This document shows positions 3 through 42,542 of a stretch of 64,000 bases of DNA, one piece after another. Position 1 is the stretch's first letter. Every line of letters begins with the position of its first letter. Source of the stretch: Streptomyces sp. NBC_00237 (GTDB lineage: Bacteria > Actinomycetota > Actinomycetes > Streptomycetales > Streptomycetaceae); NCBI RefSeq assembly GCF_026342435.1, contig NZ_JAPEMT010000002.1:124001-188000 (forward strand), given 5' to 3'. Below the pieces are notes generated by a model. It had not been told where the DNA came from. It was given only the letters and a program-made list of their open reading frames with translations, and ran no database searches. Position numbers and translations under genes: made by a program.

Positions 3-3000
3 CTCGCCGAGCACGGCGTCCGGCTGGGCCGCTATCCGTCGCGGCTGCGTGAAGTGGTCACGGCGGGCGAGCAGTTGCTGTGCACGGACGCGATCCGGCG
101 GTGGTTCGCCGGTATGCCGGGGGCCCGGTTGTTCAATCATTACGGTCCTTCCGAGACCCATGTGGTGAGTGCGCTGTGCCTGGAGGGCGACCCGGCCGAC
201 TGGCCGCAGCGTCCGGCGATCGGCCGTCCGGTGGCGGGCGCGTGGCTGCGGGTGGTCGACGAGGCGGACGCTCCCGTGCCGCCGGGGATGCCGGGTCGGC
301 TGCTCATCGGCGGGCCGATGGCCGCTCCCTGCTACGCGGGCGACGCCGTCCAGAGCGCCCGCCTGAACGCGGAGCGTTTCGTCGACCTGCCCGGTCTCGG
401 CACCTTCTACCGCAGCGGCGACCTGGCGCACTTCGACCACGAAGGGCTGCTGCACTACCGGGGGCGCGACGACCAGCAGATCAAGCTGAGCGGCCACCGG
501 CTCGAACTGGGCCAGGTGGAGGCGGCGCTCCTGCGTCACCCGGACGTGGTCAACGCGGTCGTCGCGGTGCAGGTCGAACCGGGGTCCCAGCCAGCGGAAG
601 GCACCCGGCTGGTGGCCTGCTTGCAGCTGCGCGATCCTGATTCCCCGCCGGATCAGGCGGAGTTGGCACGGCATTTGGCACCGCTGCTGCCCTCGTACGT
701 ACGGGTGGACCGCTTCCGCGTCCTGGAGCGACTGCCCCTCGCGCCGAGCGGAAAGCTGGACCGCAGGGCGGCGCTCACGGCGCCGGGCGTGGAACTGGGG
801 GTACCGCGGGCCACGGCCTTGGCGGAGGCGGCCCCCAGGGCGGCCGCGCTGTCGGCGCGGGAGGCACGGCTGACGAAACTCTTCGAGGAGGTGCTCGGCC
901 TGTCCCCCGGACCTGACGAACGCTTCTTCGACGCGGGCGCGTCCAGCCTGGGCCTGATGCGGTTCCATCTGCGCTGCACGGCCGAACCGGAGCTGCGCTT
1001 CTCGATCCCGGACCTCTTCGAGCACGTCACCGTACGCCGCCTCGCGGCCCATCTCGACGACCGGGAATCGCCAACGCGCCCGCGTGGAAAGGTTGTTGAG
1101 CAGCGCACAGCGGAGCACGACGAGTCGTCGGACGCGCGTGAACCCATCGCCGTCGTCGGCATGGCCGTACGCGTCCCCGGTGCGGACGATCTCGCCGCGT
1201 TCTGGAAGCTGATACGCACCGGGGGCCGGGGCATGGAGCACTTCGAGGCGCCCGAAGGCGTGGTCGGGGTGCGCAGCCAGATGTCGGAGCTGCTCTCGTT
1301 CGACGCCGAGCACTTCGGCATCAGCCGCCAGGAAGCCCGCCTGATGGACCCTCAGCAGCGGCATCTCCTGATGAGCTGCGTACAAGCGCTCGCGCATGCC
1401 GGAATCGGCGGGTCAGGGGCGGCGGACGCGCGGCGGGCCGGAGAAGGGAGCGGACAGCGGCCCGGGGCCGGGCAGCGGTCCGGCGAGAAGGCCGGGCCTC
1501 GGATCGGGCTCGTCGCGGGCTGCGGCGAGAACACCTACTTCCAGTCCCTGCTGCGCGAGGCGGACCCCGAGCGGCTGCCCGACGGGTTCCAGCTCGCGCT
1601 GCATCACGAGAAGGACTTCCTCACCACCAAGGTGGCCTACCACCTCGACCTCGCGGGTCCTGCGTTCACCGTGCAGGCGGCGTGCGCCAGTTCGCTGGTC
1701 GCCGTCCACGTCGCGGCGGGCCTGCTGCGGCAGGGCGACGCCGACGTGATGCTCGCGGGCGGAGTGCTCGTCGACACGCTGCTGACGGACGGATACGCCT
1801 ACCGCCCGCAGCACATCTTCTCCGCGGACGGCCACTGCCGGGGCTTCAGCGACGACGCGAGCGGCACCGTCGGTGCGAGCGGTGTGGGCGTGGTGGTGCT
1901 CAAGCCGCTGCGCCTGGCGCGCCGCGACGGCGACACCGTGTACGCGGTACTCACCGGCTCGGCACTCAACAACGACGGTGCGGGCAAGCTCAGTTACAGC
2001 GCACCGTCGCTGGCAGGCCAGCGCGACGTGATCCGTGCGGCATTGCGCCGCAGCGGTCGCTCCGGTGCCGATCTGGGGTACGTGGAGGCGCACGGCACCG
2101 GCACTCCGCTGGGGGACCCGGTGGAGGTCGGCGCGCTGCGTCAAGCCTTCGGCGAGGAAGACGCCGCGGCAGCCGGGAACACTTCCCCGGCGTGTGCACC
2201 CGCCTCGGTCGCGCTGGCCTCGGTGAAGAGCCAGATCGGGCATCTGGGCGCGGCGGCCGGAGTGGTCGGCCTGGTCAGGGCCGTCCTGGCGATCCACCAT
2301 GCGGTGATTCCCCCGCAGGTCGACTTCCACCGGCTCAACCCGCAGATCGGGCCCGACGCGGGGCCGTTCTTCATCCCGACCGAGGCGCGGGCCTGGCCCG
2401 TCGACCGGCCGAGGGTGGCCGCGGTGAGCAGCTTCGGCATCGGCGGCACCAATGCGCACGTCGTACTGGAGGCGGGCGACTCGTCGACGGGCGGCCCGGC
2501 CCCGGAGGCCGACACCGCGCGAAGCGTGGACGGCACGAGCGGCACGAGCCGCACGAGCACAGCGGATGCGGCGGGTGCGGCAGTGCCGTGCGTGGTGCTC
2601 TCCAGCAGCAGTGCACAAGCGCTGCGCACCGACGCCGCGCGCATCGCCGCCCACCTGCGTGCACGCCCGGAGACGTACGACAGCGTGGTGCGGCACCTCC
2701 GGGCCGGGCGTCCGGCGCGCCGCCTGCGGGTGGCGGCGGTGTGCGCGGACGCGGCGGAGGCGGCGGTCTGGCTGGACGCGGTCGCCGAAGGGACGGTGCG
2801 GCCCGTCGAGGCGGGCGTACCGGACGTAGCCGACGACGGTCTGTCCGTGGGCGAGCACGCGCCCGGTGATCTGGTCGCGGCCTGGCTGGCGGGCCGGTTC
2901 GTCCGGTGGTCGGAGGCTTCGGAGGCTTCGGAGGCTTCGGCGCAGGCTCCGTGGGACTTCCCGCCGCCCGCCTTCGCCCTCACCACGTACGACGCGTCGG

Positions 3001-5756
3001 AGCTGCGGCGCACCGTGACGACGGGTGACGGCTCGCCGGGGACCGCCGCCGGGGAGTGGCCCGAGCGCGTGGGCGAGGCGGGTTGGCTGCACCAGCCGCA
3101 CTGGGTGCGACGGGGCCGAGCCGGTGGTCCCGGTGAAGTGGGCTCCGCTCAGGGCCTGTTGGTGGTGATGACGGATGAGCCGTTGCCGGAGGCTGCCCTG
3201 CGGCCCTTCCGTGCTGTGTTCGACCGGGTCGTCGGTGTCGTCGCCGCAGAAGGGTTCGCCCGTCTCGGTGAGGACGCGTACGCGGTGGACGCGGCTGACT
3301 GCGACTCCCTGCGGCAGCTTTTCGACGCACTCGTGGCTTCGTCTCCGGTCTCGGCAGTTCCGGGTGCGGGCCCGGTCGTCGACTGGTTGCACGCGCTGCC
3401 GCTCGGGGTCGGAGGGGCGGTCGACGACACCTCGCTCGACCGCGCCCGCCGGGCCTGTCTGGACACCCCGGCCGCCCTGCTGCGCGCTGCGGCCGAACTG
3501 TCGCACCCCGTAACGCTGCGGCCCTGGTGGCTCTCGTACGCGGCGCAGCCCGTCGAAGGACCCGTACGGCGGCCGGAGTTGGGGCTGCTGGCGGGTGCGG
3601 CGGAGGTGGCGGCACAGGAGTGCGCCGTCGACGCACGGTGGCTGGACCTGCCGAGTGATGAACTGGACTGCTGGGCAGCCGCGTTGGCGGGACTGCTCGC
3701 CGAACGCGTGCAGGCGCGGGAGGATTCCGGCACGGAGCGGCGGCTCGCGCTGCGGCAGGGCTACTGGTGGCGTCAGGCCGTGCTGCCGGTGCCCGTTCCG
3801 GAGCCGACCGCACCATCGGTGGCGGCCTTCCAGCCCACAGGGGCGGAGGGTCCCCCGACGTACGTGGTCCTGGGCGGTACCGGCGGGATCGGCAGTGCGC
3901 TGGCCGCCCAGTTGCTCGTGGAGTCCGACGCGTGCCGTCTGGTACTGGTGTCACGCCGGGCCGCTCTCCCCGAGGCGCTCGCGCCGTGGGCGGACCGCGT
4001 CGACCTGGTCGAGGCGGATCTGGGAGTGGCCCGCGTCGAGGACGTACTCGGACTCCTCGAAGGTGTCGCCACGCGGATCGACGGGGTGGTGCACGCGGTG
4101 GGCCTGCCGGGCGGCGGGCTGCTGACGCGGCGGGACAGTGCCGCGATGCGGCCTGCGACGGAGGGCAAACTGCGCGGCGCGCTGCTGGTCGAGCGGCTGA
4201 TCGAACGCCACCGGCCCGCTTTCGCCGTGTACTGCTCGTCGATGTCGGCACTGTTCGGCGGCGTCGGCCAGTTCGACTACGCGGCGGCGAACGGTCTGCT
4301 GGACGGCTTCGCCGGGCACCGGTCGGGAGAGGGCGAGAGCACCCTGCGGATCGCGCTCGGCTGGGACGTCTGGCGCGAGGGCGGCATGGCCGGGCGGGCC
4401 CTGCACGGGGACGCACGCCATCACGCCCATCTCGCGGTCGGCCTGACCGATGCGGAGGGCAGGCTGGTGTTCGCACGGGCGCTGCGACTCCAGTTGCCGC
4501 ACCTGCTGGTGTCGACGACGGACATCGGGCGGGCCGCCGCCTTCTACGCGCCGCCGCAGGACCGGGGCGTACCGAAGGGCGGGAACCCACCGCAGAGTCG
4601 AGCCCTGCCAGAGGGCCAGGACCGGGGACGCGGTGCCGCGCCCGACGACGCACGCGGCACCCTCACCGGCTGGCTCGGTCAGTGGCTGGGGCTCGACGCG
4701 GCGGAACTCGATCCGGAGGTGTCCTTGTACGACTACGGCGCCGACTCCCTCACCATGATCGACCTCATCGCCAAGGTGGAGCAGCACTTCGGCGTCGACC
4801 TGGAACTCTCCCGGCTCAGTCACCGGGTGAGCGTGGAGGAGCTGCTGGGGCACCTGCCCCGGGAGGCCGGGGCCGCGCCGGAGGCAACCGCAGCGGCCAC
4901 CCGGACCACCGAGGTCTCGGCGGAATTCCGTTCCGTGCCCGCCCCCGAAGTGACCCTTGAGGTCTGGCAGGAGGGTACCGGCACCGACCTGGTGTGCCTG
5001 GTGCATCCGGTGGGCGGCGACATCCAGGCGTACCGCGACCTGGTGTCGGCGCTCGACCCGCACCTCACCGTCTGCCTCGTCGCGGACCCCTTCCTGCGCG
5101 GCTCCGCCGAGCACGGGCCCGGCGTCGCGGCCTGGTCCCTCGCGGAGCGTGCGCGCCGGTACCACGCCGCGCTCCAGGAGCGCTTCCCGCACGGCGAGTG
5201 GCGGTGGCAGCTGGCGGGCTGGTCGTTCGGGGCGTGGGTGGCGCACGCCATGGCCGCGGAGGCGGAGGCGGCGGGCCGACCCGCCGAAGGGCTCCACCTG
5301 CTGGACCCGCCGCCGCCGGACGGCGCCGCCCGGTTCCTCACGTACGACGACGACGAGAAGGGCATCGAGGCGGTCTTCGCGTACGAACTCGGCCAGGGCC
5401 GTGCGGAATCGGCGGGCGGGACGGCGTCGCAGAGCCCCCGGGCGCAGGCGTACGCCGCGCGTCTCGCGGTGTGCTGCCGGGCGAACCTGGCGGCGATGGC
5501 GCGGCACGTGCTGCCCCGGCTGGCCGCCACGCCCGCGCATCTCTGGCTGGCGGGCCTGCCGGTTCCCGGGCTGCCGGAGCCGGACTCCGTACACCGTCAA
5601 CTCATCGCGTGGAAAGCCGAGTTGCCGTTCCTCAAGGCCACGGCAACGCTGGACACGACGCACTACGGCATCGTCCGCCCGCCGCACGTACGGCCGGTGG
5701 CCGATGCGGTGAACACGGCGGCGTCCTGGTCCCGTACGGATCGCGGAGACGGGTGA
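3..5756 (+). CDS. Hybrid NRPS-PKS megasynthase, 3' part (A-PCP-KS-KR-ACP-TE), no AT domain
   Basis: The frame is open from base 3, so the gene starts upstream of the window. Counting residues from codon 54-56, the order is: C-terminal half of an adenylation domain (NHYGPSETH near 30, YRSGDLA near 120, PSGKLDRR near 235), a peptidyl carrier domain (DAGASSLGLM near 298), a ketosynthase with Cys 544 in QAACASSL plus EAHGTGTPLGDP and KSQIGHLGA, a long linker, a ketoreductase (GGTGGIGSALA near 1273, then SSMS and YAAAN catalytic motifs), an acyl carrier domain (DYGADSLTM near 1561) and a type I thioesterase (GWSFGAW near 1722). No acyltransferase GHSxG domain lies between KS and KR, so the extender unit must be loaded in trans. 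An activated amino acid is extended once, ketoreduced, then released by the TE. The product is unknown. It terminates at TGA 5754-5756. Confidence 0.93.
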   Translation, partial: LAEHGVRLGRYPSRLREVVTAGEQLLCTDAIRRWFAGMPGARLFNHYGPSETHVVSALCLEGDPADWPQRPAIGRPVAGAWLRVVDEADAPVPPGMPGRLLIGGPMAAPCYAGDAVQSARLNAERFVDLPGLGTFYRSGDLAHFDHEGLLHYRGRDDQQIKLSGHRLELGQVEAALLRHPDVVNAVVAVQVEPGSQPAEGTRLVACLQLRDPDSPPDQAELARHLAPLLPSYVRVDRFRVLERLPLAPSGKLDRRAALTAPGVELGVPRATALAEAAPRAAALSAREARLTKLFEEVLGLSPGPDERFFDAGASSLGLMRFHLRCTAEPELRFSIPDLFEHVTVRRLAAHLDDRESPTRPRGKVVEQRTAEHDESSDAREPIAVVGMAVRVPGADDLAAFWKLIRTGGRGMEHFEAPEGVVGVRSQMSELLSFDAEHFGISRQEARLMDPQQRHLLMSCVQALAHAGIGGSGAADARRAGEGSGQRPGAGQRSGEKAGPRIGLVAGCGENTYFQSLLREADPERLPDGFQLALHHEKDFLTTKVAYHLDLAGPAFTVQAACASSLVAVHVAAGLLRQGDADVMLAGGVLVDTLLTDGYAYRPQHIFSADGHCRGFSDDASGTVGASGVGVVVLKPLRLARRDGDTVYAVLTGSALNNDGAGKLSYSAPSLAGQRDVIRAALRRSGRSGADLGYVEAHGTGTPLGDPVEVGALRQAFGEEDAAAAGNTSPACAPASVALASVKSQIGHLGAAAGVVGLVRAVLAIHHAVIPPQVDFHRLNPQIGPDAGPFFIPTEARAWPVDRPRVAAVSSFGIGGTNAHVVLEAGDSSTGGPAPEADTARSVDGTSGTSRTSTADAAGAAVPCVVLSSSSAQALRTDAARIAAHLRARPETYDSVVRHLRAGRPARRLRVAAVCADAAEAAVWLDAVAEGTVRPVEAGVPDVADDGLSVGEHAPGDLVAAWLAGRFVRWSEASEASEASAQAPWDFPPPAFALTTYDASELRRTVTTGDGSPGTAAGEWPERVGEAGWLHQPHWVRRGRAGGPGEVGSAQGLLVVMTDEPLPEAALRPFRAVFDRVVGVVAAEGFARLGEDAYAVDAADCDSLRQLFDALVASSPVSAVPGAGPVVDWLHALPLGVGGAVDDTSLDRARRACLDTPAALLRAAAELSHPVTLRPWWLSYAAQPVEGPVRRPELGLLAGAAEVAAQECAVDARWLDLPSDELDCWAAALAGLLAERVQAREDSGTERRLALRQGYWWRQAVLPVPVPEPTAPSVAAFQPTGAEGPPTYVVLGGTGGIGSALAAQLLVESDACRLVLVSRRAALPEALAPWADRVDLVEADLGVARVEDVLGLLEGVATRIDGVVHAVGLPGGGLLTRRDSAAMRPATEGKLRGALLVERLIERHRPAFAVYCSSMSALFGGVGQFDYAAANGLLDGFAGHRSGEGESTLRIALGWDVWREGGMAGRALHGDARHHAHLAVGLTDAEGRLVFARALRLQLPHLLVSTTDIGRAAAFYAPPQDRGVPKGGNPPQSRALPEGQDRGRGAAPDDARGTLTGWLGQWLGLDAAELDPEVSLYDYGADSLTMIDLIAKVEQHFGVDLELSRLSHRVSVEELLGHLPREAGAAPEATAAATRTTEVSAEFRSVPAPEVTLEVWQEGTGTDLVCLVHPVGGDIQAYRDLVSALDPHLTVCLVADPFLRGSAEHGPGVAAWSLAERARRYHAALQERFPHGEWRWQLAGWSFGAWVAHAMAAEAEAAGRPAEGLHLLDPPPPDGAARFLTYDDDEKGIEAVFAYELGQGRAESAGGTASQSPRAQAYAARLAVCCRANLAAMARHVLPRLAATPAHLWLAGLPVPGLPEPDSVHRQLIAWKAELPFLKATATLDTTHYGIVRPPHVRPVADAVNTAASWSRTDRGDG

Positions 5757-32729: not shown

Positions 32730-32825
32730 TCAGTTCGATTGCTTCGTACGGCGCTTCCCGTGGGCGACGGTGACCACCGCGAGCAGCGGACCCCGGAGGA
32801 GGAACGGTGCGCAGCAGAGGGTCAT
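32730..32825 (-). CDS. Possible 31-residue hydrophobic micropeptide
   Basis: The ATG overlaps the TGA of the peroxiredoxin gene (ATGA), giving a 31-codon ORF beginning MTLCCAPFLLRGPLLAVV and ending in a basic tail (HGKRRTKQSN). It has the shape of a single membrane helix with a positive cytoplasmic end. There is no ribosome site of its own, so expression would need coupling. It sits between the peroxiredoxin stop and the terminator at 32689-32714. It could be chance. Confidence 0.3.
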   Translation of the reverse strand: MTLCCAPFLLRGPLLAVVTVAHGKRRTKQSN

Positions 32826-33310
32826 GAGGAAGCCGTGAGGGACCTCAGTTCCCTGGCGAGGACGTCGGTGGTCTGGAAGGTCGCCCCCAGCAGGGAGACG
32901 TGCTTCCAGTGCAGGGTGCCGTCGGGGGCGACGATGAAGACGGCGCGGCGCAGGCCGATGCCGGGGGCGGTGATGCCGAAGGACTTCGCCACGCTCCGGT
33001 CGGTGTCGGCGAGCAGCGGCATCCGCAGGCCGTGCTTGCGGGCGAAGGACTCGTGGCTGTCGAGTCCCTGCGGGCTGATGCCCCACACCTCGGCCCCGCT
33101 GTCGGCGAAGACGTCGAGGCCGCTGGAGTACGAGCAGAGCTGCTTGGTGCAGACGGAGGTGTCGTCGCCGGGGTAGAAGGCGAGCACCAGGGGTCGGCCG
33201 CGCCGGGAGCTCAGCGTGTACGCGCCATGCTCGAAGCCGTCGTCGGTGAGCACTCCGCCGGGGAGCGTGAAGTCGGCAAGAGGGGTGTGCGGGGCGGGGG
33301 TTGCGGGCAC
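32822..33310 (-). CDS. Peroxiredoxin (AhpC/TSA, BCP-like)
   Basis: 162 residues from GTG 33308-33310 (GAGGAC 7 nt upstream); a longer ATG start is less supported. Thioredoxin fold with the peroxidatic cysteine in FYPGDDTSVCTKQLC; a second Cys five residues later fits the atypical 2-Cys BCP arrangement. The conserved Arg (LRRAVFIV) is present. It reduces hydrogen peroxide and organic hydroperoxides. It diverges from the ThDP/alpha-dioxygenase operon, whose chemistry would produce fatty-acid hydroperoxides; a functional link is inference. Confidence 0.92.
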   Translation of the reverse strand: MPATPAPHTPLADFTLPGGVLTDDGFEHGAYTLSSRRGRPLVLAFYPGDDTSVCTKQLCSYSSGLDVFADSGAEVWGISPQGLDSHESFARKHGLRMPLLADTDRSVAKSFGITAPGIGLRRAVFIVAPDGTLHWKHVSLLGATFQTTDVLARELRSLTASS

Positions 33311-33396
33311 GGAAGGGTCCTCACTCGTCGACGGGCGGTCTCTCCGGAGGATAGGCGGCCCCGCAGCGGGGGCTGCCACCGCCCGTCACTCACTTG

Positions 33397-33481: not shown

Positions 33482-35107
33482 ATGCGCACGGTTCGCGAAT
33501 CGGTGCTCGACGTCCTCCGGGCGCGCGGAATGACGACGCTGTTCGGCAACCCGGGGTCCACGGAGCTGCCGATGCTCAAGGAGTTCCCGGAGGACTTCCG
33601 GTACGTGCTCGGGCTCCAGGAGGCGGTGGTGGTCGGCATGGCCGACGGGTTCGCCCTCGCCTCCGGCAGCACCGCACTGGTCAACCTGCACACCGGCCCG
33701 GGCACGGGCAACGCGATGGGCGCGATCCTCAACGCCCGCGCGAACCGCACCCCCATGGTCGTCACGGCCGGCCAGCAGGTGCGCGCCATGCTGACCATGG
33801 AGGCACTGCTCACGAACCCGCAGGCCACGCACCTGCCGCTGCCCGCCGTGAAGTGGGCGTACGAGCCGCCGCGCCCCGTGGACGTCGCTCCCGCGCTGGC
33901 CCGGGGCGTGCAGATCGCGGAAACCCCCGCCCGGGGGCCGGTCTTCCTGTCGCTGCCGATGGACGACTTCGACGCCGAGGTGGACGAGGACACGGACCGG
34001 GCGGCGGCCCGCACCGCCGCCCGCACGGTCGGCCACGCCGCCTCCCCCGGCGAGGAGGCGGTACGGAATCTCGCCGACCGCCTCGCGTCGGCGCGCGGTG
34101 CGGTCCTGGTCGTCGGCAACGACGTGGACGCCTCCGGGGCGTGGGACGACGTCGTCGCCCTGGCGGAGCGCACCGGCCTCCCGGTGTGGTCCGCGCCGAC
34201 CGAGGGCCGGGTGTCGTTCCCGAAGTCGCACCCGCAGTACCGGGGAGTCCTGCCCCCCGGCATCGCCCCGCTGTCGGGGTGTCTGGCGGGCCACGACCTG
34301 GTGTTCGTCATCGGCGCCCCGGTCTTCTGCTACTACCCCTACCTTCCCGGGAGTTACCTGCCGGACGGGGCCGAGCTGGTGCAGCTCACGCGGGACGCCG
34401 ACGAGGCGGCCCGCGCCCCGGTCGGGGACGCGCTGGTCGCGGATCTCTCCCTCACCGTACGGGCGCTGCTCGCGCACCTCCCCGGTCTTGACCCGCGCGG
34501 GGCGGAGCACGCTGAGACGCCGTCCGCCACCACCGGCGCCGCCCCGGTCACGGACACCGACGGGCTGATGTCCCCGCTCACGGCGATGACCGCGATCGCC
34601 AAGGGCGCACCCGAGAACACCCTGTGGGTGAACGAGTCCCCGTCCAACCTGGGCCAGTTCCACGAGGCGACCCGGATCAGCAGGCCCGGCTCCTTCCTGT
34701 TCACGGCGGGCGGCGGTCTCGGCTTCGGTCTCGCCGCCGCGGTGGGGGCCCAGCTCGGCGCTCCCGAGCGGCCCGTGGTGTGTGTGATCGGCGACGGGTC
34801 GACGCACTACGCCGTGCAGGCGCTGTGGACGGCGGCCACGTACAAGGTCCCGGTCACCTTCGTCGTCCTGAGCAATCAGCGGTACGCGATCCTCCAGTGG
34901 TTCGCGCAGCTGGAGCAGGCCCAGGGGGCGCCGGGTCTGGACATTCCGGGCCTGGACATCGTGTCGGTGGCCCTCGGGTACGGGGTGCGCGCGCACCGGA
35001 TGTCGGGCGCGGCCGAACTCACCAAGTTCGTACGGGAGTCGACTCTCCAGCAGGAGGGGCCAGTGCTTCTCGACGTGCCTGTCAGCACGGAACTGCCCTC
35101 TCTCTAG
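33482..35107 (+). CDS. ThDP-dependent 2-oxoacid decarboxylase (benzoylformate decarboxylase-like)
   Basis: 541 residues from ATG 33482 (GGAGG 7 nt upstream). Three-domain ThDP enzyme: N-terminal PYR domain with FGNPGSTELP and the catalytic Glu in LQEAVVVGMADG, the central domain, and the PP domain with the ThDP motif GDGSTHYAVQALW...VLSN near residue 437. It aligns closely with Pseudomonas benzoylformate decarboxylase (NLHTGPGTGNAMG keeps His 70). At the position I align with its His 281 (GAPVFRYHQY) this protein has GAPVFCYYPY, so Tyr replaces His and the pocket differs. It probably decarboxylates a 2-oxoacid to an aldehyde. It is the first gene of a six-gene operon. Confidence 0.92.
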   Translation: MRTVRESVLDVLRARGMTTLFGNPGSTELPMLKEFPEDFRYVLGLQEAVVVGMADGFALASGSTALVNLHTGPGTGNAMGAILNARANRTPMVVTAGQQVRAMLTMEALLTNPQATHLPLPAVKWAYEPPRPVDVAPALARGVQIAETPARGPVFLSLPMDDFDAEVDEDTDRAAARTAARTVGHAASPGEEAVRNLADRLASARGAVLVVGNDVDASGAWDDVVALAERTGLPVWSAPTEGRVSFPKSHPQYRGVLPPGIAPLSGCLAGHDLVFVIGAPVFCYYPYLPGSYLPDGAELVQLTRDADEAARAPVGDALVADLSLTVRALLAHLPGLDPRGAEHAETPSATTGAAPVTDTDGLMSPLTAMTAIAKGAPENTLWVNESPSNLGQFHEATRISRPGSFLFTAGGGLGFGLAAAVGAQLGAPERPVVCVIGDGSTHYAVQALWTAATYKVPVTFVVLSNQRYAILQWFAQLEQAQGAPGLDIPGLDIVSVALGYGVRAHRMSGAAELTKFVRESTLQQEGPVLLDVPVSTELPSL

Positions 35108-35149
35108 GCCCTGTTGCCCCTCCTTGCCGTCCCGTCCCGGAAGGCCGTC

Positions 35150-36559
35150 ATGTCGCTCAGCACCGCATCCGCCACCCTGCTGTCCCGGCTCGCCGCCGTG
35201 CTCCCCGCGCGGGCGTTGCTCACCGACCCCGGCCAACTGGCCGCACACGCAAGAGATTCCGCCCCGTTCTCGGAGTACGGCACCCCTGCCGCCGTGGTCG
35301 TGCCCCGTTCCGTCAAGCAGGTCGAGCAGGTGATGGCGCTCGCGTACGAGGCGGGGGTGCCGGTCGTCCCGCAGGGGGCGCGCACCGGTCTCGCCGGGGC
35401 GGCGAACGCCGTCGACGGTTGCCTCGTGCTGTCGCTGGCGGCGATGGACCGCATCCTGGAGATCGACCCGGCGAACCGTCTCGTACGGTGCGAGCCCGGA
35501 GTCGTCACCAAGCACCTCGCCGAGGCGGTCGCCGAGCACGGGCTGAGCTATCCGCCCGACCCCGCCTCCTGGGAACGCTGCACCGTCGGCGGCAACATAG
35601 CCACCGGCGCGGGCGGCATCTGCTGCGTGAAGTACGGGGTGACCGCGGACTACGTGCTGGGCCTTGACCTCGTCCTGCCGGACGGGCGGCGGATGCGCAC
35701 CGGGCACGACACGGTCAAGGGCGTCGCCGGGTACGACCTCACGCACCTGATCGTGGGTTCCGAGGGGACCCTCGCGGTCGTGGTCGGGGCGACGCTGGCG
35801 CTGCGGCCCGCGAGACCCCCGGCACTGTCGCTCCTCGCCCAGTTCCCCACCCTGACCGCCGCCGGGGACGCCGTCGCGGAGATCACCGCCGCCGGTCACG
35901 CCCCGTCCGCGCTGGAGCTGCTCGACCGGGCGACGTCGGACGCGGTGGTGGCGTACGGGCATCCGCTGCTGAAGGCGGGCAGCGCGGCCACGCTGATCGT
36001 GGAGTGCGACTCCGCCGACCCGGCGGCCGACCTGACGGCGATCGAGGCGCTGTGCCGGGCGGCGGGCGCGGAAAACGTGGAGACGGCGGCGGACGGCGAC
36101 GCGGCCCGGAGCATCATAGAGGCCCGCAGGCTGGTCGGTCCGGCGCTGGCTGCGTACGCCGCGACGAAGGGCGACGCGATGACCTCCTTCATCGAGGACG
36201 TGGCCGTGCCGCGCTCCCAACTGGCCCGGTTCGTCGGCCTGATCGAGGACATCGCCGCCCACCACCGGCTGACGGTCTTCACGCTCGGGCACGCGGGTGA
36301 CGGCAATCTGCACCCGACCGTCGTCTTCGACGAGTCGGACCCGGACGAGTTCCGGCGGGCGCAGACCGCGTACGACGACATCATGGCCGCCGGTCTCGCC
36401 CTCGGCGGCACCAGCACCGGCGAGCACGGCATCGGCACCCTCAAGCGGGACTGGCTGGAGCGTGAACTCGGCCCGGTCTCCCTGGAGTTGCAGCGCGGCC
36501 TCAAACGCCTCTTCGACCCGAAGAACCTGCTCAACCCCGGAAAGGTCGTCACGGCATGA
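35150..36559 (+). CDS. FAD-linked D-2-hydroxyacid dehydrogenase (GlcD / D-lactate dehydrogenase type)
   Basis: 469 residues from ATG 35150 (GGAAGG upstream). FAD-binding type 4 (VAO) fold: PQGARTGLAGAAN for the pyrophosphate, SWERCTVGGNIATGAGG and GSEGTLAVV, then the C-terminal domain with the metal/active-site motif GHAGDGNLHP and STGEHGIGTLK. The family oxidises D-(R)-2-hydroxyacids to 2-oxoacids and passes electrons to a quinone, cytochrome or flavoprotein. It lies between a 2-oxoacid decarboxylase and a P450; its product would feed the decarboxylase. Its TGA overlaps the P450 ATG. Confidence 0.93.
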   Translation: MSLSTASATLLSRLAAVLPARALLTDPGQLAAHARDSAPFSEYGTPAAVVVPRSVKQVEQVMALAYEAGVPVVPQGARTGLAGAANAVDGCLVLSLAAMDRILEIDPANRLVRCEPGVVTKHLAEAVAEHGLSYPPDPASWERCTVGGNIATGAGGICCVKYGVTADYVLGLDLVLPDGRRMRTGHDTVKGVAGYDLTHLIVGSEGTLAVVVGATLALRPARPPALSLLAQFPTLTAAGDAVAEITAAGHAPSALELLDRATSDAVVAYGHPLLKAGSAATLIVECDSADPAADLTAIEALCRAAGAENVETAADGDAARSIIEARRLVGPALAAYAATKGDAMTSFIEDVAVPRSQLARFVGLIEDIAAHHRLTVFTLGHAGDGNLHPTVVFDESDPDEFRRAQTAYDDIMAAGLALGGTSTGEHGIGTLKRDWLERELGPVSLELQRGLKRLFDPKNLLNPGKVVTA

Positions 36560-37917
36560 CGCTGCCCGCCGCCGCCCCGCACACCATCACCGGCCAGGAC
36601 GCCTCCACTCCCCCGCCACCCGTGCGGGCGGGCCGTGCCGAGACGGTGCGGTTCGTCGCCACCCACACGCTGCCCGCGTTCGCCCGGGGTCTGGTCAGCC
36701 TCCGCCATCCGGTGGTGTCGCTGTACGCGAAGGTGCGCCAGCCCGCCTGGTCGAACGCCACGCTGCGGGCCATGAAGCAGCGGCACGGCGGGGCACCCGT
36801 CCTGGTGCGCGGCCTGTCGGGCGACATGCTGGTGCTGTTCGACGCGCAGGACGTCCGGCGGTTCTTCGACGAGCCGGTGATGGCGTTGGCCATGGATCCA
36901 CCGGACAAGTACGACAGCCTCAGCGTGTTCGAGCCGACCGGGGTGATCTGCTCGCGCGGCGCGCGCCGCGAGGAGCGCCGGGACCTCAACGACGAGGTCC
37001 TGGCCTGGCGGGATCCTGTCCACCCGGACTGTGCGGACTACCTCCGGATCGTCGAGGAGGAGTGCCGGGCGCTGACCACGTCCGGCACGCTCGCCTTCCC
37101 CGCCGTACTGAGGGCCGTGAGCCGCGTCTCACGGCGGATCGTGCTGGGCGACCGGGCGGCCGACGACGAGGAACTCGCCCAGTGGCTGGCGATCCTGCGC
37201 GGCCGGGCCAACTGGATGGGCAAGGTCCGGGCCCGCGACAGCAGGGCCCTGTACGAGAAGGCGACGGCGCGCATCGCCCAGTACGCGGCTGACGCGCCCG
37301 CCCACGCCCTGGCGGCCCGCGCGCTGGCCGCCCCCTCCCCCGAGGGCACCGACCCGGTGGGCCAGACCCACCACTGGCTGCTCGCCACCGACGCCTGCAC
37401 GGCGGCCGTCGTGGCGCGCACGCTGCTGCTGCTCGGCGCGCATCCGGCCGAGCAGGAGGCGGCGCACGAGGACGCCCGCACCGGAGGGCCCGGTTTCCCC
37501 CGGCTGCGGGCCTGCGTCCAGGAGTCGATCCGGCTGTTCCCTGTCGTCCCTGACCTGGTGCGGGTGACCAGGGAGGAGACCGAGTGGCGGGGGGTGCGGC
37601 AACCCGCCGGGACGGCGGTGATGGTGCCGATCGGGTTCCATCAGCGGGACCCGGATGCGGTCGCGGGTGCCCATCTCTTCGCCCCTGGCCGGTGGTTGAA
37701 GCCGGATGCGGACCGGGACACCGCGATGGCTCCGTTCAGTCACGGCCAAGGCAGGTGCCCCGGCGACCAGTTGGGGCTGCTGCTGAGCTCCGCGGTCTGC
37801 GCCGAGGTGCTGCGCGACCACCGCATCACCGGGGCGCGTCCCGTCCTGGACACCGCGCGGCCGCTGCCCGGTGTGCTGGGCACGGCCGCCGTCCGGCTGC
37901 GGCTCGCCCCCCGCTGA
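36556..37917 (+). CDS. Cytochrome P450 lacking the I-helix acid/threonine pair
   Basis: 453 residues; the ATG overlaps the previous stop (ATGA). Heme-binding loop FSHGQGRCPG with the thiolate Cys 401, and the K-helix ExxR in QESIRLFP. The I-helix aligns without gaps to the usual AGxET T segment but reads ATDACT (277-282): Ala replaces the acid and Cys the first Thr. Loss of this oxygen-activation pair is typical of peroxygenase or hydroperoxide-metabolising P450s. There is no ferredoxin gene nearby. It is cotranscribed with an alpha-dioxygenase that makes fatty-acid hydroperoxides, so peroxide-shunt chemistry is plausible but inferred. There is no membrane anchor. Confidence 0.9.
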   Translation: MTLPAAAPHTITGQDASTPPPPVRAGRAETVRFVATHTLPAFARGLVSLRHPVVSLYAKVRQPAWSNATLRAMKQRHGGAPVLVRGLSGDMLVLFDAQDVRRFFDEPVMALAMDPPDKYDSLSVFEPTGVICSRGARREERRDLNDEVLAWRDPVHPDCADYLRIVEEECRALTTSGTLAFPAVLRAVSRVSRRIVLGDRAADDEELAQWLAILRGRANWMGKVRARDSRALYEKATARIAQYAADAPAHALAARALAAPSPEGTDPVGQTHHWLLATDACTAAVVARTLLLLGAHPAEQEAAHEDARTGGPGFPRLRACVQESIRLFPVVPDLVRVTREETEWRGVRQPAGTAVMVPIGFHQRDPDAVAGAHLFAPGRWLKPDADRDTAMAPFSHGQGRCPGDQLGLLLSSAVCAEVLRDHRITGARPVLDTARPLPGVLGTAAVRLRLAPR

Positions 37918-37992
37918 CCGGCCCGCCCTCAGCCGCGTACACCCGCCCCCGTCTGCGAGAACGACCCGACCCCACCGGGAAGTGCACACGCC

Positions 37993-39414
37993 ATGTCCGA
38001 CGTGAACTCAGGGCCCCTGCCGGGTCCGTCGTCCGATCCGCCGTACGGCTCCGCGTCCACCGCCGCGCCGGGCCCCGAACCCGACGTCGCATCCCTGCAC
38101 CACGTGTGCCGGGAGCTCGCCGAGGCCGCCGACGCGGTACGGGAGGCGTCCCGTTACGCCTCGCGGGTGGCGCTCGGTACGCGGCTGCCGCTCACCGCCC
38201 TGGGCTCCCGGCGCACTCGCGCCTCCCAACGCGCCCTGATCCGAACGCTGTTGAATCCCCAGGGGCTCGGCTGGGGGCCGCAGGGGCGGACCCCGCTCGC
38301 GGCGGTCGCCTGGCTGGCCGGGGTGCTGACCAGCCGGGAGAACCTGGCGGTGAGCCTCGCCGTCGCCGGGCTCAAGGCCCGCATCCGGGCGGCGGCCGTC
38401 CGCCACCCCGAGCTGCTCGGCCACCCGGCGACGTCGAAGGTCCTCCAGGCCATCCAGGAGGACCGCCAGGTCGAGGCGGTGCGCACGTTCAAGGCACTGC
38501 TGCACGAGGAGGGCGCCGAGTACGCTCTCGCGCTGCTCGCCCCGTCGTTCGCGGACATCATCGCCTGGAACGCGCTGACCGACGAGAACCCCTTCAACGA
38601 CCAGGCGGGCTGGCAGGTCGCCACCGGCAGGGCGCTCACCTCCGACTACCTGATGGGTTTCAGCGGCCGCGTGTGGGACTTCCTGGACCGGGGTCAGGGG
38701 CGGGCCGAGCCGCACACCCCCGACCCGGACCTCCTCGGTGCCCTCGACACGTCGGGCACGCTCGTCGGCTGGATCACCAACATCGGACTGATCGGCACCG
38801 AGGGCCTGCTCCTGGTCCAGCAGGTGATCGGCCCGGACGGGGTGCTGCGGTACGTCGTCCAGTTCGCCGGGATGGCGCGCACGCTGGGCGCGGAGACCCC
38901 GCAGGACCTCCTCGGCGCCATCGACTCGGTGGCGGGTGCGGACACCGCGTACAGCAGGGCGGTCCGCAAGGCGCTGCGGCAGATGATCCCCTCGGGCGCG
39001 GAGGTCGCACTCGTCGGGCACAGCCAGGGCGGGGTCACCGCGATGAACCTGGCGGCACACCGCGACTTCAACGTCCTGTACACGGTCACGCACGTCGTCG
39101 CGATCGGCTCGCCCATCGACCAGAAGCGCCCCGCCGACCCTCGTACCCGGGTGTTCTCGCTGGTCAACGAGCACGACATCGTGCCGAGCCTGGAGGGCAG
39201 ATCGGCGGTGTCGCCGTACCCGCTGGGCCCGGAGTTCACCGAGTACACCTGGACGGACGACACCCACGCCTTCCCGCTGTGCCATGCCGCCGAGCGGTAC
39301 GCGCACAACCTGGCGCACGACGTCCCCGAGGCGAGTGCGCACGTCGACGCGGAGCTCGCCGCGTACCGCGGCCGGGTGACCGGAAACCGCTTCTTCGCCC
39401 TCCACGACCGCTGA
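37993..39414 (+). CDS. Lipase-like alpha/beta-hydrolase
   Basis: 473 residues with no signal peptide. A helical N-terminal half of about 230 residues precedes an alpha/beta-hydrolase domain with nucleophile Ser 344 in VALVGHSQGG, a likely Asp in NEHDIVPSL and a His in DDTHAFPL. This pattern fits lipase class 3-like or triacylglycerol lipase-like proteins. In the operon it could release fatty acids from lipids for the following alpha-dioxygenase, which is inference. A 13-bp segment at its stop codon is duplicated 42 bp downstream. Confidence 0.8.
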   Translation: MSDVNSGPLPGPSSDPPYGSASTAAPGPEPDVASLHHVCRELAEAADAVREASRYASRVALGTRLPLTALGSRRTRASQRALIRTLLNPQGLGWGPQGRTPLAAVAWLAGVLTSRENLAVSLAVAGLKARIRAAAVRHPELLGHPATSKVLQAIQEDRQVEAVRTFKALLHEEGAEYALALLAPSFADIIAWNALTDENPFNDQAGWQVATGRALTSDYLMGFSGRVWDFLDRGQGRAEPHTPDPDLLGALDTSGTLVGWITNIGLIGTEGLLLVQQVIGPDGVLRYVVQFAGMARTLGAETPQDLLGAIDSVAGADTAYSRAVRKALRQMIPSGAEVALVGHSQGGVTAMNLAAHRDFNVLYTVTHVVAIGSPIDQKRPADPRTRVFSLVNEHDIVPSLEGRSAVSPYPLGPEFTEYTWTDDTHAFPLCHAAERYAHNLAHDVPEASAHVDAELAAYRGRVTGNRFFALHDR

Positions 39415-39456
39415 TCGCCACCTGCTTCGCCGCCTGCTTCGTTCCACGACCGCTGA
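39402..39456. repeat. 13-bp direct duplication around the hydrolase stop codon
   Basis: CCACGACCGCTGA occurs at 39402-39414 (including the stop codon) and again at 39444-39456, just before the alpha-dioxygenase start. It suggests a small duplication in the spacer. Confidence 0.7.
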
Positions 39457-39465
39457 GGATTCCCG

Positions 39466-41367
39466 ATGTCCGAGACCGTCCCCCACCCTGACGCCCCGTC
39501 CGCCACTGACGCCCCGCCCACCCGTACGGCCGACGGCGCGCCCGGGCCCGCCCGCACCGAGCCGCCCGAGCCGTTCGGGCCGCCCGGCCTCGTCGAGCGC
39601 GCCGGGTCGGCGCTCTTCGCCCGGCTCAACCGCACGCGCGACTGGTGGGAGCTGCCCACCCCGCTCGGCATCGCCAACCTGATGGCGCTCCGCTACGACC
39701 TGCGCCGCCACAACCTCCACGACACGTACGGGGCGGGCGGCGAGCGCCCCCGGCGGCCCGCCGCCTCGCTCGCCCCGTTCCGCAGTTACGACGGGTCAGG
39801 GTACGACCCGTACGACGAGGACATGGGCCGGGCCGGGACCCGCCTGGACCGCAACTCGCCCCTCGGTCTGGCCTTCCCCGACCCGGACGACGAGCTGATG
39901 CGGCCGAGCCCCCGCGAGGTGAGCCGACAGGTGCTGGCGCGGCGGAGATTCGTCCCGGCGACGTCGCTGAACCTCCTCGCGGCGGCGTGGATCCAGTTCC
40001 AGAACCACGGCTGGGCCAATCACGGCGACAACGACCGGGCCGAGCCGTTCACGGTGCCGCTGGCCGCCGACGACGACTGGGCGCAGTGCCCGATGCGGGT
40101 GAGCCGGACCCGTCCGGACCCGGTCGCGCACACGTCGCCGGACGCCCCGCCGACGTACGAGAACACGGTGTCGCACTGGTGGGACGGCTCGCAGATCTAC
40201 GGTTCGAGCGAGGAGCGGTGCCGGTCGCTGCGGACCGGGGAGCGCGGCAGGCTGATCGTCGAGGACGGGCGGCTGCCCGCCGACTCCCGCCCCGGTCTCG
40301 ACTGCCTGGACGCGACCGGTTTCAACAACGACTACTGGACCGGGCTTTCGCTGCTCCACACGCTCTTCGCGAAGGAGCACAACTCCATCTGCGACGCGAT
40401 CGCCGCCCAGCACCCCACCTGGGACGACGAGCGGCTCTTCCACACCGCGCGGCTGGTGAACACCGCTCTGATGGCGAAGATCCACACGGTGGAGTGGACG
40501 CCCGGCATCCTGGACCAACCCGTGGTGCGCAGGGCGATGAACGCCAACTGGTACGGCCTGCTGCCGCGTTGGGCGAAGCGGCGCTTCGGTTCCTTCGGCG
40601 GGGAAGCCCTGAGCGGCGTCCTCGGTTCGAGTACGGCGCACCACGCCGCGCCGTACTCGATGACGGAGGAGTTCGTCTCCGCGTACCGGCTGCATCCGCT
40701 GATCCCCGACGAGCTGACGATCCGCGACCACCGGCGGGGCACGACGCGGGAGTCGATCGGCTTCGACGACATGCAGGGCGCGACGACGCGGCTGGCGGTC
40801 GACGTGTACGGGGCGACGGACCTGCTGTACTCCTTCGGCACCGCCCACCCGGGCGCGCTCGTCCTGCACAACCACCCCGACGCGCTGCGCGACCTCAGCC
40901 GCCTCTCCGGCGAGCACATCGATCTCGGCACGGTCGACATCCTGCGCGACCGCGAGCGCGGCATCCCGCGCTACAACGCGTACCGGCAGATGCTGCGGAA
41001 GCGCCCGGTCACGTCGTTCGAGGAGCTGACCGGCGGGCACGCGGACGACACCGCGCTGCTGCGGGAGTTGTACGAGGACCGGCTCGACCGGGTCGACACT
41101 CTGGTGGGGAATCTGGCGGAGCCGCGCCCGGAGGGGTTCGGCTTCAGCGACACCCTCTTCCGGATCTTCATCCTGATGGCGAGCAGGCGGCTGAAGAGCG
41201 ACCGCTTCTTCACCACCGACTACCGTCCGGAGGTCTACACGGCGGAGGGCCTGGAGTGGGTCGACCGCAACTCGATGGTCACCGTACTGCTGCGCCATCA
41301 CCCGGAGTTGGGCCCGGCGCTCGCCGGAACGACGAACGCGTTCGCCCCGTGGGAGGGACGTTCATGA
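39466..41367 (+). CDS. Heme-dependent fatty-acid alpha-dioxygenase-like protein
   Basis: 633 residues of the animal-type heme peroxidase superfamily. It carries the alpha-dioxygenase-specific features: distal His 181 in AAAWIQFQNHGWANH, and the radical tyrosine and proximal heme ligand as Y407-R-L-H410 (SAYRLHPLIPD), with the same three-residue spacing as plant alpha-DOX. Other family blocks are WWDGSQIYG and LFAKEHNSICD. Plant alpha-DOX adds O2 to C2 of fatty acids to give 2(R)-hydroperoxides, which decay to the shortened aldehyde or reduce to 2-hydroxyacids. A Pro-rich N-terminal tail of about 45 residues precedes the domain. It overlaps the next ORF by 4 nt. Confidence 0.88.
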   Translation: MSETVPHPDAPSATDAPPTRTADGAPGPARTEPPEPFGPPGLVERAGSALFARLNRTRDWWELPTPLGIANLMALRYDLRRHNLHDTYGAGGERPRRPAASLAPFRSYDGSGYDPYDEDMGRAGTRLDRNSPLGLAFPDPDDELMRPSPREVSRQVLARRRFVPATSLNLLAAAWIQFQNHGWANHGDNDRAEPFTVPLAADDDWAQCPMRVSRTRPDPVAHTSPDAPPTYENTVSHWWDGSQIYGSSEERCRSLRTGERGRLIVEDGRLPADSRPGLDCLDATGFNNDYWTGLSLLHTLFAKEHNSICDAIAAQHPTWDDERLFHTARLVNTALMAKIHTVEWTPGILDQPVVRRAMNANWYGLLPRWAKRRFGSFGGEALSGVLGSSTAHHAAPYSMTEEFVSAYRLHPLIPDELTIRDHRRGTTRESIGFDDMQGATTRLAVDVYGATDLLYSFGTAHPGALVLHNHPDALRDLSRLSGEHIDLGTVDILRDRERGIPRYNAYRQMLRKRPVTSFEELTGGHADDTALLRELYEDRLDRVDTLVGNLAEPRPEGFGFSDTLFRIFILMASRRLKSDRFFTTDYRPEVYTAEGLEWVDRNSMVTVLLRHHPELGPALAGTTNAFAPWEGRS

Positions 41368-41615
41368 GCACCCGTACGAGCCACTACCCGACCGCGTCGC
41401 CCGACCGCCCCGGCCCGACCCAGGGCCTGCGCGTGCACGCGAGCAGTCTGCGGGAGCACGCGGACCGGCTGCGGGCGGCAGCGCGGGAACTGGACTGGGA
41501 CGGACCGCAGGCAGACGCCTTCCGGGCACGGCTGAACCTGCTCGCGGGGCGGTGCTCGACGGCGGCGGACGGGCTGGCACGGTCGGCGGCGGGGTTCGAC
41601 GACGGTGGGCGCTGA
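41364..41615 (+). CDS. WXG100-like small protein
   Basis: 83 residues; the ATG overlaps the stop of the dioxygenase gene, with GGGAGG just upstream. The C-terminal two-thirds form a helical hairpin around a W-D-G turn (ARELDWDGPQADAFRARL), with flanking helices LREHADRLRAA and AGRCSTAADGLARSA, as in WXG100/ESAT-6-like proteins. No ESX secretion gene is nearby. It may act as a partner or chaperone for the dioxygenase or another operon protein. Its short length and single copy keep confidence moderate. Confidence 0.7.
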   Translation: MSTRTSHYPTASPDRPGPTQGLRVHASSLREHADRLRAAARELDWDGPQADAFRARLNLLAGRCSTAADGLARSAAGFDDGGR

Positions 41616-41759: not shown

Positions 41760-42542
41760 ATGACACGTTTTGGTGGATACGGCGTACTCGTCACCGGCGC
41801 GGGCCAGGGCATCGGGGCGGCGACCGCCCGGCGGTTCGCGGTGGAGGGGGCGGGGGTGCTCGTCACCGACCGGGACCCGTTGCGCGCCGAAGAGGTGGCC
41901 GAGGGGATACGCGAGGCGGGCGGGACCGCACTGGCGCAGGTCTGCGACGTCGTCGACCGGGGCGCGGTGGAGACGGCGGTGGACCGGGCCTTCGCCGCCT
42001 TCGGCCGACTCGACGTGCTGGTCAACAACGCGTACGCCTGTCATGCCGAGCCCCCGCTCTTCGAGGACACGCCCGACGAGCCCTGGTACGAGGACTTCGA
42101 GGTGAGCCTGCACGGCGCGTTCCGCTGCACCCGCGCCGCCCTGCCGCACCTGGCGGCGGCCGACGGGCGCGGGGCGGTCGTCAACATCGGCTCGGTCAAC
42201 GCGGAGCAGCACTTCGGCAACCACGCCTACAGCGCCGCGAAGGCGGGCCTGGCCTCCCTCACCCGCACGCTGGCCGTGCAGTGCGCGCCGCGCGGAGTGC
42301 GCGTCAACGTCGTCGAGCCCGGAACCGTACGCACCGGCGCCTGGGACGGCCGACAGACCCGCCTCGACGACCTCCCGCCGCACTATCCGCTGGGACGGCT
42401 CGGAGAGCCCGAGGACATCGCTGCGGCCGTCACGTTCCTGGCGTCGGCGGACGCCACCTGGATCACGGGGGTGACGCTGCCGGTGGACGGCGGCCTGCTG
42501 GTCAGCAACATGGCGATGCGGCGCACGCTGGACGGAAATTGA
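41760..42542 (+). CDS. Short-chain dehydrogenase/reductase
   Basis: 260 residues from ATG 41760. Classical SDR: cofactor motif TGAGQGIG, NNA in VLVNNAYA, catalytic Ser in NIGSVNAEQ, YxxxK in YSAAK, and the C-terminal PVDGGLL. An Asp after strand beta-2 (VTDRDP) favours NAD. It follows the alpha-oxidation operon on the same strand, but a hairpin and 144 bp separate them. An aldehyde or hydroxyacid substrate from that pathway is possible but unproven. Confidence 0.9.
   Translation: MTRFGGYGVLVTGAGQGIGAATARRFAVEGAGVLVTDRDPLRAEEVAEGIREAGGTALAQVCDVVDRGAVETAVDRAFAAFGRLDVLVNNAYACHAEPPLFEDTPDEPWYEDFEVSLHGAFRCTRAALPHLAAADGRGAVVNIGSVNAEQHFGNHAYSAAKAGLASLTRTLAVQCAPRGVRVNVVEPGTVRTGAWDGRQTRLDDLPPHYPLGRLGEPEDIAAAVTFLASADATWITGVTLPVDGGLLVSNMAMRRTLDGN

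Follow-up and report, generated by a model that had tools for sequence, protein, structure and literature searches.

What becomes of the fatty-acid 2-hydroperoxide that an alpha-dioxygenase (alpha-DOX) forms in a bacterium, and which enzymes would take it further? The question is raised by six open reading frames (ORFs), all on the + strand at 33482-41615, of a 64,000-nucleotide stretch of DNA from Streptomyces sp. NBC_00237 (assembly GCF_026342435.1, contig NZ_JAPEMT010000002.1, positions 124,001 to 188,000), which was analysed at its full length and is here called the window; its source genome measures 9.2 Mb. The ORFs encode a thiamine diphosphate (ThDP)-dependent enzyme, a flavin adenine dinucleotide (FAD)-linked enzyme, a cytochrome P450 (P450), an alpha/beta hydrolase, an alpha-DOX and a small protein. 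The product of alpha-DOX is an (R)-2-hydroperoxide, which decarboxylates spontaneously (PMC9305512; this and the other papers given by PMC number are cited for those parts of their text that were available). An earlier interpretation of the same DNA from its letters alone, termed here the sequence-only reading, had seen in these genes a complete fatty-acid alpha-oxidation operon. The analysis described below leads us to favour, on balance, a dedicated fatty-acid alpha-oxidation operon in which the P450 would handle the hydroperoxide and the FAD and ThDP enzymes would converge on the aldehyde shortened by one carbon (Cn-1 aldehyde).

The operon and its alpha-dioxygenase

The fifth gene (39466..41367, +, 633 aa) encodes an An_peroxidase-domain protein (PF03098, 352 bits) that, judged by its structural relatives and active-site residues, is an alpha-dioxygenase. 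Its best matches in the PDB are 4kvj, named fatty acid alpha-oxidase (390.8 bits, E 1e-115), which we take to be rice alpha-DOX, and 4hhr, labelled alpha-dioxygenase (361 bits); besides these two and 4kvl, all other PDB sequences listed score below 90 bits. Alignment to the alpha-DOX structures places the catalytic Tyr407, the proximal His410 and the distal His181 where the sequence-only reading had located them. In 4kvl, a variant of 4kvj, Phe is aligned to Tyr407, as would be expected of a mutant of the catalytic Tyr. His340, Thr345 and Arg575 of the window protein align with His311, Thr316 and Arg559 of the rice enzyme, which we take to be its carboxylate-binding residues, and are kept in 106, 104 and 105, respectively, of 106 aligned rows. 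Five alpha-DOX sites are retained in 104 to 106 of these rows, a count that includes duplicates, as 103 rows are distinct. The distal His has been described as only partly conserved in alpha-DOX (PMC8720084). In 14 of the 106 rows it is replaced by Arg (13) or Lys (1); this group comprises L040-L049 from Streptomyces as well as L119, L121, L123 and L126, and several of its members adjoin patatin-like or GMC genes.

The six genes are closely packed. A gap of 42 bp separates the ThDP and FAD genes, the FAD and P450 genes overlap by 4 bp (ATGA, 36556-36559), gaps of 75 bp and 51 bp lie before and after the hydrolase gene, and the alpha-DOX gene again overlaps the small ORF by 4 bp (ATGA, 41364-41367). 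Pfam backs all five large genes, the hydrolase barely, at its cut-off, and among the operon proteins the ThDP enzyme is the one that exceeds an NCBIfam cut-off. The Pfam scan of the operon revealed neither a reductase nor a ferredoxin domain, and a scan for promoters and terminators, which is uninformative at this GC content, yielded none. Six same-strand genes had also been described in the sequence-only reading, and the ORFs and domain matches bear this out. Its account of the gene set stands, with two amendments: the P450 had been counted without being given any role, and the start of the small ORF is now placed at 41364. This gene content, like the active-site residues, is read directly from the sequence.

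Conservation of the gene set

Alpha-DOX (E 1e-30) was detected in 35 of 150 Streptomyces genomes, and seven Streptomyces genomes, including that of NBC_00237, carry one at least 68% identical to that of the window. The 20-kb regions of the other six preserve the order ThDP-FAD-P450-hydrolase-DOX in four cases; L035 gave no hydrolase match, and L038 has neither the ThDP nor the FAD gene. A 39-kb plasmid of Streptomyces sp. NBC_00069 holds all six genes in order, annotated as mdlC, FAD oxidase, P450, alpha/beta hydrolase, peroxidase and hypothetical protein.

For a wider census, gene families were scored by profile searches of six-frame translations in 102 alpha-DOX loci, 60 of which have at least 7 kb on both sides; the duplicates L061, L067 and L069 (contigs of L035, L037 and L038) were dropped, and L191 was not counted as a locus separate from L065. 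The five large genes occur in the order and strand of the window in 14 of the 102 loci, the NBC_00069 plasmid being one of them, and one more locus lacks only the hydrolase. Rearranged sets were found in Nonomuraea soli (L079, DOX-ThDP-FAD-P450-hydrolase) and in Rhizohabitans arisaemae (L070, with the ThDP and FAD genes on the other strand). A ThDP gene of the benzoylformate decarboxylase (BFD) type is present in 17 loci, all 17 of which also contain the FAD gene and the P450; L050, whose ThDP gene (164 bits) is on the opposite strand and of a different ThDP type, was left out of this number. The hydrolase family occurs in 21 of the 102 loci. The most frequent partner is the P450 family, found within 7 kb of alpha-DOX in 30 loci, among them L092 from a cyanobacterium (176 bits), which falls outside the P450 label of the tree described below. 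Neither a ThDP nor an FAD gene accompanies the P450 in 13 of these 30 loci; among the 13, the contigs of L080, L081 and L131 do not exceed about 7 kb, and that of L074 extends just 4 kb upstream. Three further full operons were recovered around P450 matches (L192, L193 and L194).

None of 20 control regions, taken from 19 Streptomyces genomes of which 16 had also supplied an alpha-DOX region, contains any of the operon families at more than 25 bits. Since the gene set recurs elsewhere while the controls are devoid of its families, the linkage is more than chance. A phyletic search with the ThDP protein covered 55 Streptomyces genomes, 35 with and 20 without alpha-DOX. At E 1e-120 it found matches in eight genomes: six, with 63-100% identity, all reside inside the operon, and the other two, with 45-47% identity, are on other contigs than alpha-DOX. 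None of the 20 genomes without alpha-DOX yielded a match at this threshold. The sequence-only reading had named conserved synteny of the alpha-DOX, FAD and ThDP genes as the way to check its proposal; such linkage, the absence of which would have refuted that reading, is indeed observed in other Streptomyces, on a plasmid, in Nonomuraea and in Rhizohabitans.

The haem partners of alpha-dioxygenase

The P450 (36556..37917, +, 453 aa; PF00067) has Cys401 as its haem ligand and could be matched to no named subfamily, its best NCBIfam score being 63 bits against a cut-off of 525. The AlphaFold (AF2) model has a confidence score (pLDDT) of 90.7. Foldseek ranks first a Streptomyces P450, CYP184A1, in complex with oleic acid (24% identity); in VIA-align the model displays the general P450 fold and is equally close to many families, with Z about 30 to 33. 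Monooxygenases activate O2 with an acid-Thr pair in helix I. This pair is absent from the helix I of the window P450, which reads ATDACT, and from 16 of 22 aligned rows of the family, the window included. Membership in the CYP152 fatty-acid peroxygenases (NF053744) was rejected at 16.8 bits against a cut-off of 600, and membership in CYP74 was rejected on the haem loop FSHGQGRCPG, which has no insertion, and on ATDACT, which has no Asn. The CYP74 signatures are a nine-residue insertion in the haem-binding domain and a conserved Asn in the helix-I groove (PMC8124189); CYP74 enzymes act on lipid hydroperoxides without O2 or a redox partner, and their helix-I region differs (PMC10813956).

In other lineages, alpha-DOX is accompanied by a different haem protein. 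A catalase-like protein is encoded within 7 kb of alpha-DOX in 17 of the 102 loci, in 12 of them as a fusion or by a same-strand gene no more than 1.5 kb away. A fusion at the N-terminus of alpha-DOX was seen in Streptomyces (L050-L052), Rhizobium (L055), Phyllobacterium (L056) and Calothrix (L136), in each case by Pfam except in L050, where it was identified by profile search. Two more fusions, in L201 (Streptomyces) and L207 (another genome of the class), are suggested by matches that overlap and by open frames longer than 1000 aa. The nearest solved relative of the catalase-like partner is 3e4w (E 8e-14), which we take to be a mycobacterial catalase-related protein. A Thr-His pair is, reportedly, the hallmark of fatty-acid-hydroperoxide reactivity, as the title of one paper has it. 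As this hallmark is absent, the assignment of the partner to a proven allene-oxide-synthase type was rejected.

No locus among the 102 has both the P450 and the catalase-like partner, an observation that, like the conserved linkage, comes straight from the genomes. By the hypergeometric distribution, zero overlap has a chance of 0.0014, which rises to 0.011 if the catalase-like genes are limited to the 12 closest; neither value is corrected for relatedness. In a quick tree of 103 alpha-DOX, supported by the Shimodaira-Hasegawa-like approximate likelihood ratio test (SH-aLRT) only, the P450-linked enzymes group, except for L131, in a single starred clade, where 29 of 33 rows have the P450; the catalase label, which covers only the 12 close cases, requires at least five changes. 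That one haem enzyme takes the place of the other next to alpha-DOX suggests that both do the same work; the substrate they share would then most obviously be the 2-hydroperoxide.

Two further observations concern the P450 family. In L178 (genome G526), an operon-type P450 adjoins a BFD-type ThDP gene that keeps the canonical His281 motif; no alpha-DOX match was obtained in this genome. In genome G504, the contig of locus L179 ends within the hydrolase gene.

The FAD and ThDP enzymes

The FAD enzyme (35150..36559, +, 469 aa) is a putative D-2-hydroxyacid dehydrogenase of the GlcD/LDHD type. It consists of the Pfam domains PF01565 (FAD_binding_4) and PF02913 (FAD-oxidase_C), matches the PDB entries 9qgz (E 7e-97) and 8jdc (E 1e-74), and remains below the cut-off of the GlcD equivalog TIGR00387 (399.5 versus 567.9 bits). 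Its Arg326, His381, His388, Glu425 and His426 correspond to Arg347, His398, His405, Glu442 and His443 of mouse LDHD, and all five are kept in 20 of 20 rows (18 distinct). In the mouse enzyme these residues bind metal and substrate; it oxidises hydrophobic D-2-hydroxyacids and does not use the L-isomers (PMC10589216). The enzyme families and the stereochemical logic of the sequence-only reading, in which an R-configured product precedes a D-specific dehydrogenase, are supported (PMC9305512, PMC10589216).

The ThDP enzyme (33482..35107, +, 541 aa) is a predicted 2-oxoacid decarboxylase of the BFD type, with 649.3 bits against PRK07092 (benzoylformate decarboxylase, equivalog; cut-off 493) and a match to the BFD structure 6qsi (E 2e-157). 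Ser26, Glu47, His70 and Phe464 of BFD are kept in 20 of 20 linked rows (18 distinct). Three further positions of the pocket, where canonical BFD has His281, Thr377 and Ala460, are occupied in the window by Tyr285, Pro387 and Ile470 (BFD positions 281, 377 and 460). Tyr and Pro are found in all 20 linked rows and Ile in 19, with Val in the remaining one, so that the canonical residues are replaced in 18 of 18 distinct alpha-DOX-linked enzymes. Two Streptomyces BFD relatives encoded away from alpha-DOX keep His, Thr and Ala, as does 6qsi. The PDB chain 4mpp, which we take to be an engineered BFD variant, shares the Tyr, Pro and Ile of the window at all three positions. The substituted pocket argues against benzoylformate as the natural substrate; it does not by itself indicate activity on long chains.

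Proposed pathway and alternatives

In the pathway that we favour, the hydrolase would release fatty acids and alpha-DOX would form the (R)-2-hydroperoxide by adding O2 at C2. This hydroperoxide would then be handled by the P450, or in other lineages by the catalase-like haem protein in its place, through cleavage, isomerisation or use as an oxygen donor, with the Cn-1 aldehyde, the (R)-2-hydroxy acid or both as products. From the D-2-hydroxy acid, the FAD enzyme would make the 2-oxo acid, whose decarboxylation by the ThDP enzyme would again yield the Cn-1 aldehyde, and the two branches would thus meet. We infer the reaction of the P450, the chain length, the decarboxylating nature of the ThDP step and the physiological purpose. 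The core of the system we read as alpha-DOX, a haem partner and usually a hydrolase, to which FAD and ThDP enzymes are added as an optional module and only as a pair. To call the operon complete, as the sequence-only reading did, was too strong, because its route contained no enzyme for the hydroperoxide and left out the P450, the more frequent partner.

The company of alpha-DOX elsewhere supports a scheme of lipid release, alpha-oxygenation, 2-hydroxy-acid oxidation and a ThDP step. A second alpha-DOX of the window genome (contig C4, L039:7663-13102, -), 55% identical to that of the operon, belongs to a single gene run that also encodes two fatty-acid desaturases and a hydrolase from the family of the operon's own (50%). 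Patatin-like phospholipases adjoin alpha-DOX in Streptomyces (L043, L045, L046, L201), Phyllobacterium (L056) and cyanobacteria (L054, L113, L114), and GMC oxidoreductases with about 49% identity between Streptomyces (L047, L049) and cyanobacteria are encoded beside it, in the latter case in the same three loci. Acetolactate-synthase-like ThDP genes, 61% identical, are located beside the catalase-DOX fusions of Phyllobacterium (L056:5151-6859, annotated as two ORFs) and Streptomyces (L201:11541-13220). The recurrence of such lipases, flavin oxidases and ThDP families across lineages disfavours chance linkage, for which the background rate comes from the 20 controls only.

Several observations weigh against this interpretation. 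The census is a biased sample, as its 80 named loci are the closest to the query of at least 575. The assignment of the hydrolase is weak, and the efficiency of LDHD is lower already at C8 (PMC10589216). Because the hydroperoxide decarboxylates spontaneously (PMC9305512), the FAD and ThDP enzymes would merely salvage. On the side of the haem partners, at least five changes, some of them from truncated contigs, are required for the P450 label of the tree too. The catalase-like genes directly beside alpha-DOX in Mycolicibacterium (L134) and Nocardia (L137) score below the Pfam cut-off and that of L045 has no Pfam match, so that all three were recognised as catalase-like by a custom profile only. 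In nine readable catalase-like rows (L050, L051, L052, L055, L056, L085, L134, L136 and L137; L041, L045 and L046 were left out), the residue before the distal His is F, I, L or A rather than Thr, and L104, L108, L118 and L129 have no His at the distal position. Six of the 22 P450 rows do have the acid-Thr pair; these include L059, a close ortholog, as well as pairs of the Nocardioides/Solirubrobacterales type, and in a larger P450 set L036 and L053 keep it too. The P450 may still be an ordinary monooxygenase. Finally, the P450 family (E 1e-40) occurs in 43 of 394 genomes of the class, of which 13 have any alpha-DOX (E 1e-60), adjacent in nine; since most of these genomes have no adjacent alpha-DOX, the family has other uses too.

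These last findings would also fit an operon for the biosynthesis of a lipid natural product rather than for the shortening of fatty acids, with an ordinary monooxygenase as the P450 and with the aldehyde, or the 2-oxo acid, as an intermediate on the way to a signal, a volatile or a lipid tail. With 30 of the 43 genomes lacking an alpha-DOX match, the acid-Thr pair retained in some rows, and a patchy distribution among Streptomyces that, together with the plasmid copy, fits secondary metabolism, this explanation has some appeal, but we regard it as unlikely: no redox partner was found in the operon, and the failure of the P450 and the catalase-like protein to co-occur fits a shared role in hydroperoxide metabolism better. 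Moreover, when 15 flank proteins were compared in 28 loci, with no systematic search for scaffold-building genes, those that recurred did so mostly in L034, L035, L053, L059 and L062. We also put forward, tentatively, a two-haem cascade, in which the 2-hydroperoxide would be passed to a dedicated P450 that needs no redox partner or, convergently, to a catalase-like protein that is sometimes fused to alpha-DOX. This would be the prokaryotic counterpart, at C2, of cyclooxygenase (COX)-P450, dioxygenase-cytochrome P450 (DOX-CYP) and lipoxygenase-allene oxide synthase (LOX-AOS) couples, and the FAD and ThDP enzymes would steer the flow to the Cn-1 aldehyde or to an acyloin.

An acyloin could also arise if the ThDP enzyme acted as a carboligase, joining the 2-oxo acid, as acyl anion, to the Cn-1 aldehyde from spontaneous decay to form long-chain alpha-hydroxyketones. 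BFD of Pseudomonas putida makes chiral 2-hydroxy ketones (PMC2976732), the operon would furnish both aldehyde and 2-oxo acid, and the acetolactate-synthase type of ThDP enzyme is linked to other alpha-DOX; yet the PRK07092 equivalog model by default implies decarboxylation, and carboligation is in our view improbable. We consider it very improbable that the FAD and ThDP enzymes share only the neighbourhood of alpha-DOX and have an aromatic or short-chain role, of the mandelate/benzoylformate or lactate/pyruvate kind. NCBIfam and the plasmid annotation do speak of benzoylformate decarboxylase, the top PDB match of the FAD enzyme bears the name glycolate oxidase, and BFD A460I acquires activity on pyruvate (PMC9063327). 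However, because the three pocket residues are replaced, by Tyr, Pro and Ile or Val, in all 18 linked ThDP enzymes and conserved as His, Thr and Ala in the two unlinked BFD relatives, an aromatic role is less likely, and the BFD-type gene occurs in the 102 loci only together with the FAD gene and the P450. A mandelate-type role is also made less likely by the fatty-acid genes that adjoin alpha-DOX elsewhere.

Relation to known systems

Alpha-oxidation by alpha-DOX has been studied mainly in plants, and the conserved operon gives bacterial alpha-DOX a pathway context and points to candidate enzymes for the fate of the 2-hydroperoxide. Actinobacteria are among the phyla named as bearing alpha-DOX (PMC8720084, PMC9305512), and three cyanobacterial enzymes, of interest for flavour aldehydes, have been named the first identified prokaryotic alpha-DOX (PMC9305512). 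The plant enzymes and the cyanobacterial CalDOX, LepDOX and CsDOX belong to the same family as the window alpha-DOX and have the same catalytic residues; their products are the (R)-2-hydroperoxide, the 2-hydroxy acid and the Cn-1 aldehyde (PMC8720084, PMC9305512). They differ from the present case by the conserved operon with hydrolase, P450, FAD and ThDP genes, of which the available parts of PMC8720084 and PMC9305512 make no mention. Literature searches on alpha-DOX and alpha-oxidation in bacteria, on fusions with catalase and on gene clusters of Streptomyces, in a collection with few subscription papers, turned up no description of the operon or of a bacterial alpha-DOX/P450 or alpha-DOX/catalase pair.

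An oxygenase, either of the peroxidase/cyclooxygenase superfamily or a lipoxygenase, is likewise coupled to a P450 in the fungal DOX-CYP fusions, in COX with prostacyclin or thromboxane synthase and in LOX with CYP74 (PMC13049297, PMC10813956). In contrast to these couples, the window has separate genes, its hydroperoxide would be at C2, and its P450, whose reaction is a proposal, lacks both the insertion in the haem loop and the Asn in helix I of CYP74.

The Pseudomonas mandelate pathway employs mandelate dehydrogenase and then benzoylformate decarboxylase. It follows the same scheme from 2-hydroxy acid through 2-oxo acid to aldehyde with an enzyme of the BFD family, whereas the operon has a substituted ThDP pocket, an FAD enzyme of the LDHD-like family and alpha-DOX. 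2-Hydroxyacyl-CoA lyase is a ThDP enzyme. In mammalian peroxisomal alpha-oxidation, it likewise frees a shortened aldehyde (PMC8781152); unlike that route, the one proposed here would involve no CoA esters and a BFD-type decarboxylase acting on the free 2-oxo acid. Candidate tools for the making of fatty aldehydes or hydroxyketones are the P450 family of the operon and its BFD variant, in which the Tyr/Pro/Ile pocket occurs naturally.

Hydrolase, small ORF and flanking genes

The alpha/beta hydrolase (37993..39414, +, 473 aa) is lipase-like, with a GHSQGG nucleophile motif and a helical N-terminal part; its score against Pfam Lipase_3 is 22 bits, exactly at the cut-off of 22 (E 1.6e-4). Its model, with a pLDDT of only 76, was too poor to use, and the Foldseek matches to esterases and lipases were weak (best E 0.011). 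The last ORF of the operon (41364..41615, +) encodes an 83-aa protein with a WDG (WxG-like) motif; at E 0.01, its residues 2-83 match nothing in Pfam or NCBIfam. In 10 of 28 loci compared, alpha-DOX is followed by an ORF of 74-112 aa that has W-x-G near its centre.

Two neighbours were considered and rejected on comparison with the 28 loci: the downstream short-chain dehydrogenase/reductase (41760-42542), as a further member of the operon, has no homologue at the same place, and the divergent AhpC/TSA peroxiredoxin (32822-33379, -), as the hydroperoxide reductase, has no homologue there. In L034, L035, L053, L059 and L062, Ohr and MarR genes precede the ThDP gene at distances of 0.7 to 3.3 kb. 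At the left edge of the window, a large ORF (54-5756, +) resembles in sequence the adenylation region of a nonribosomal peptide synthetase.

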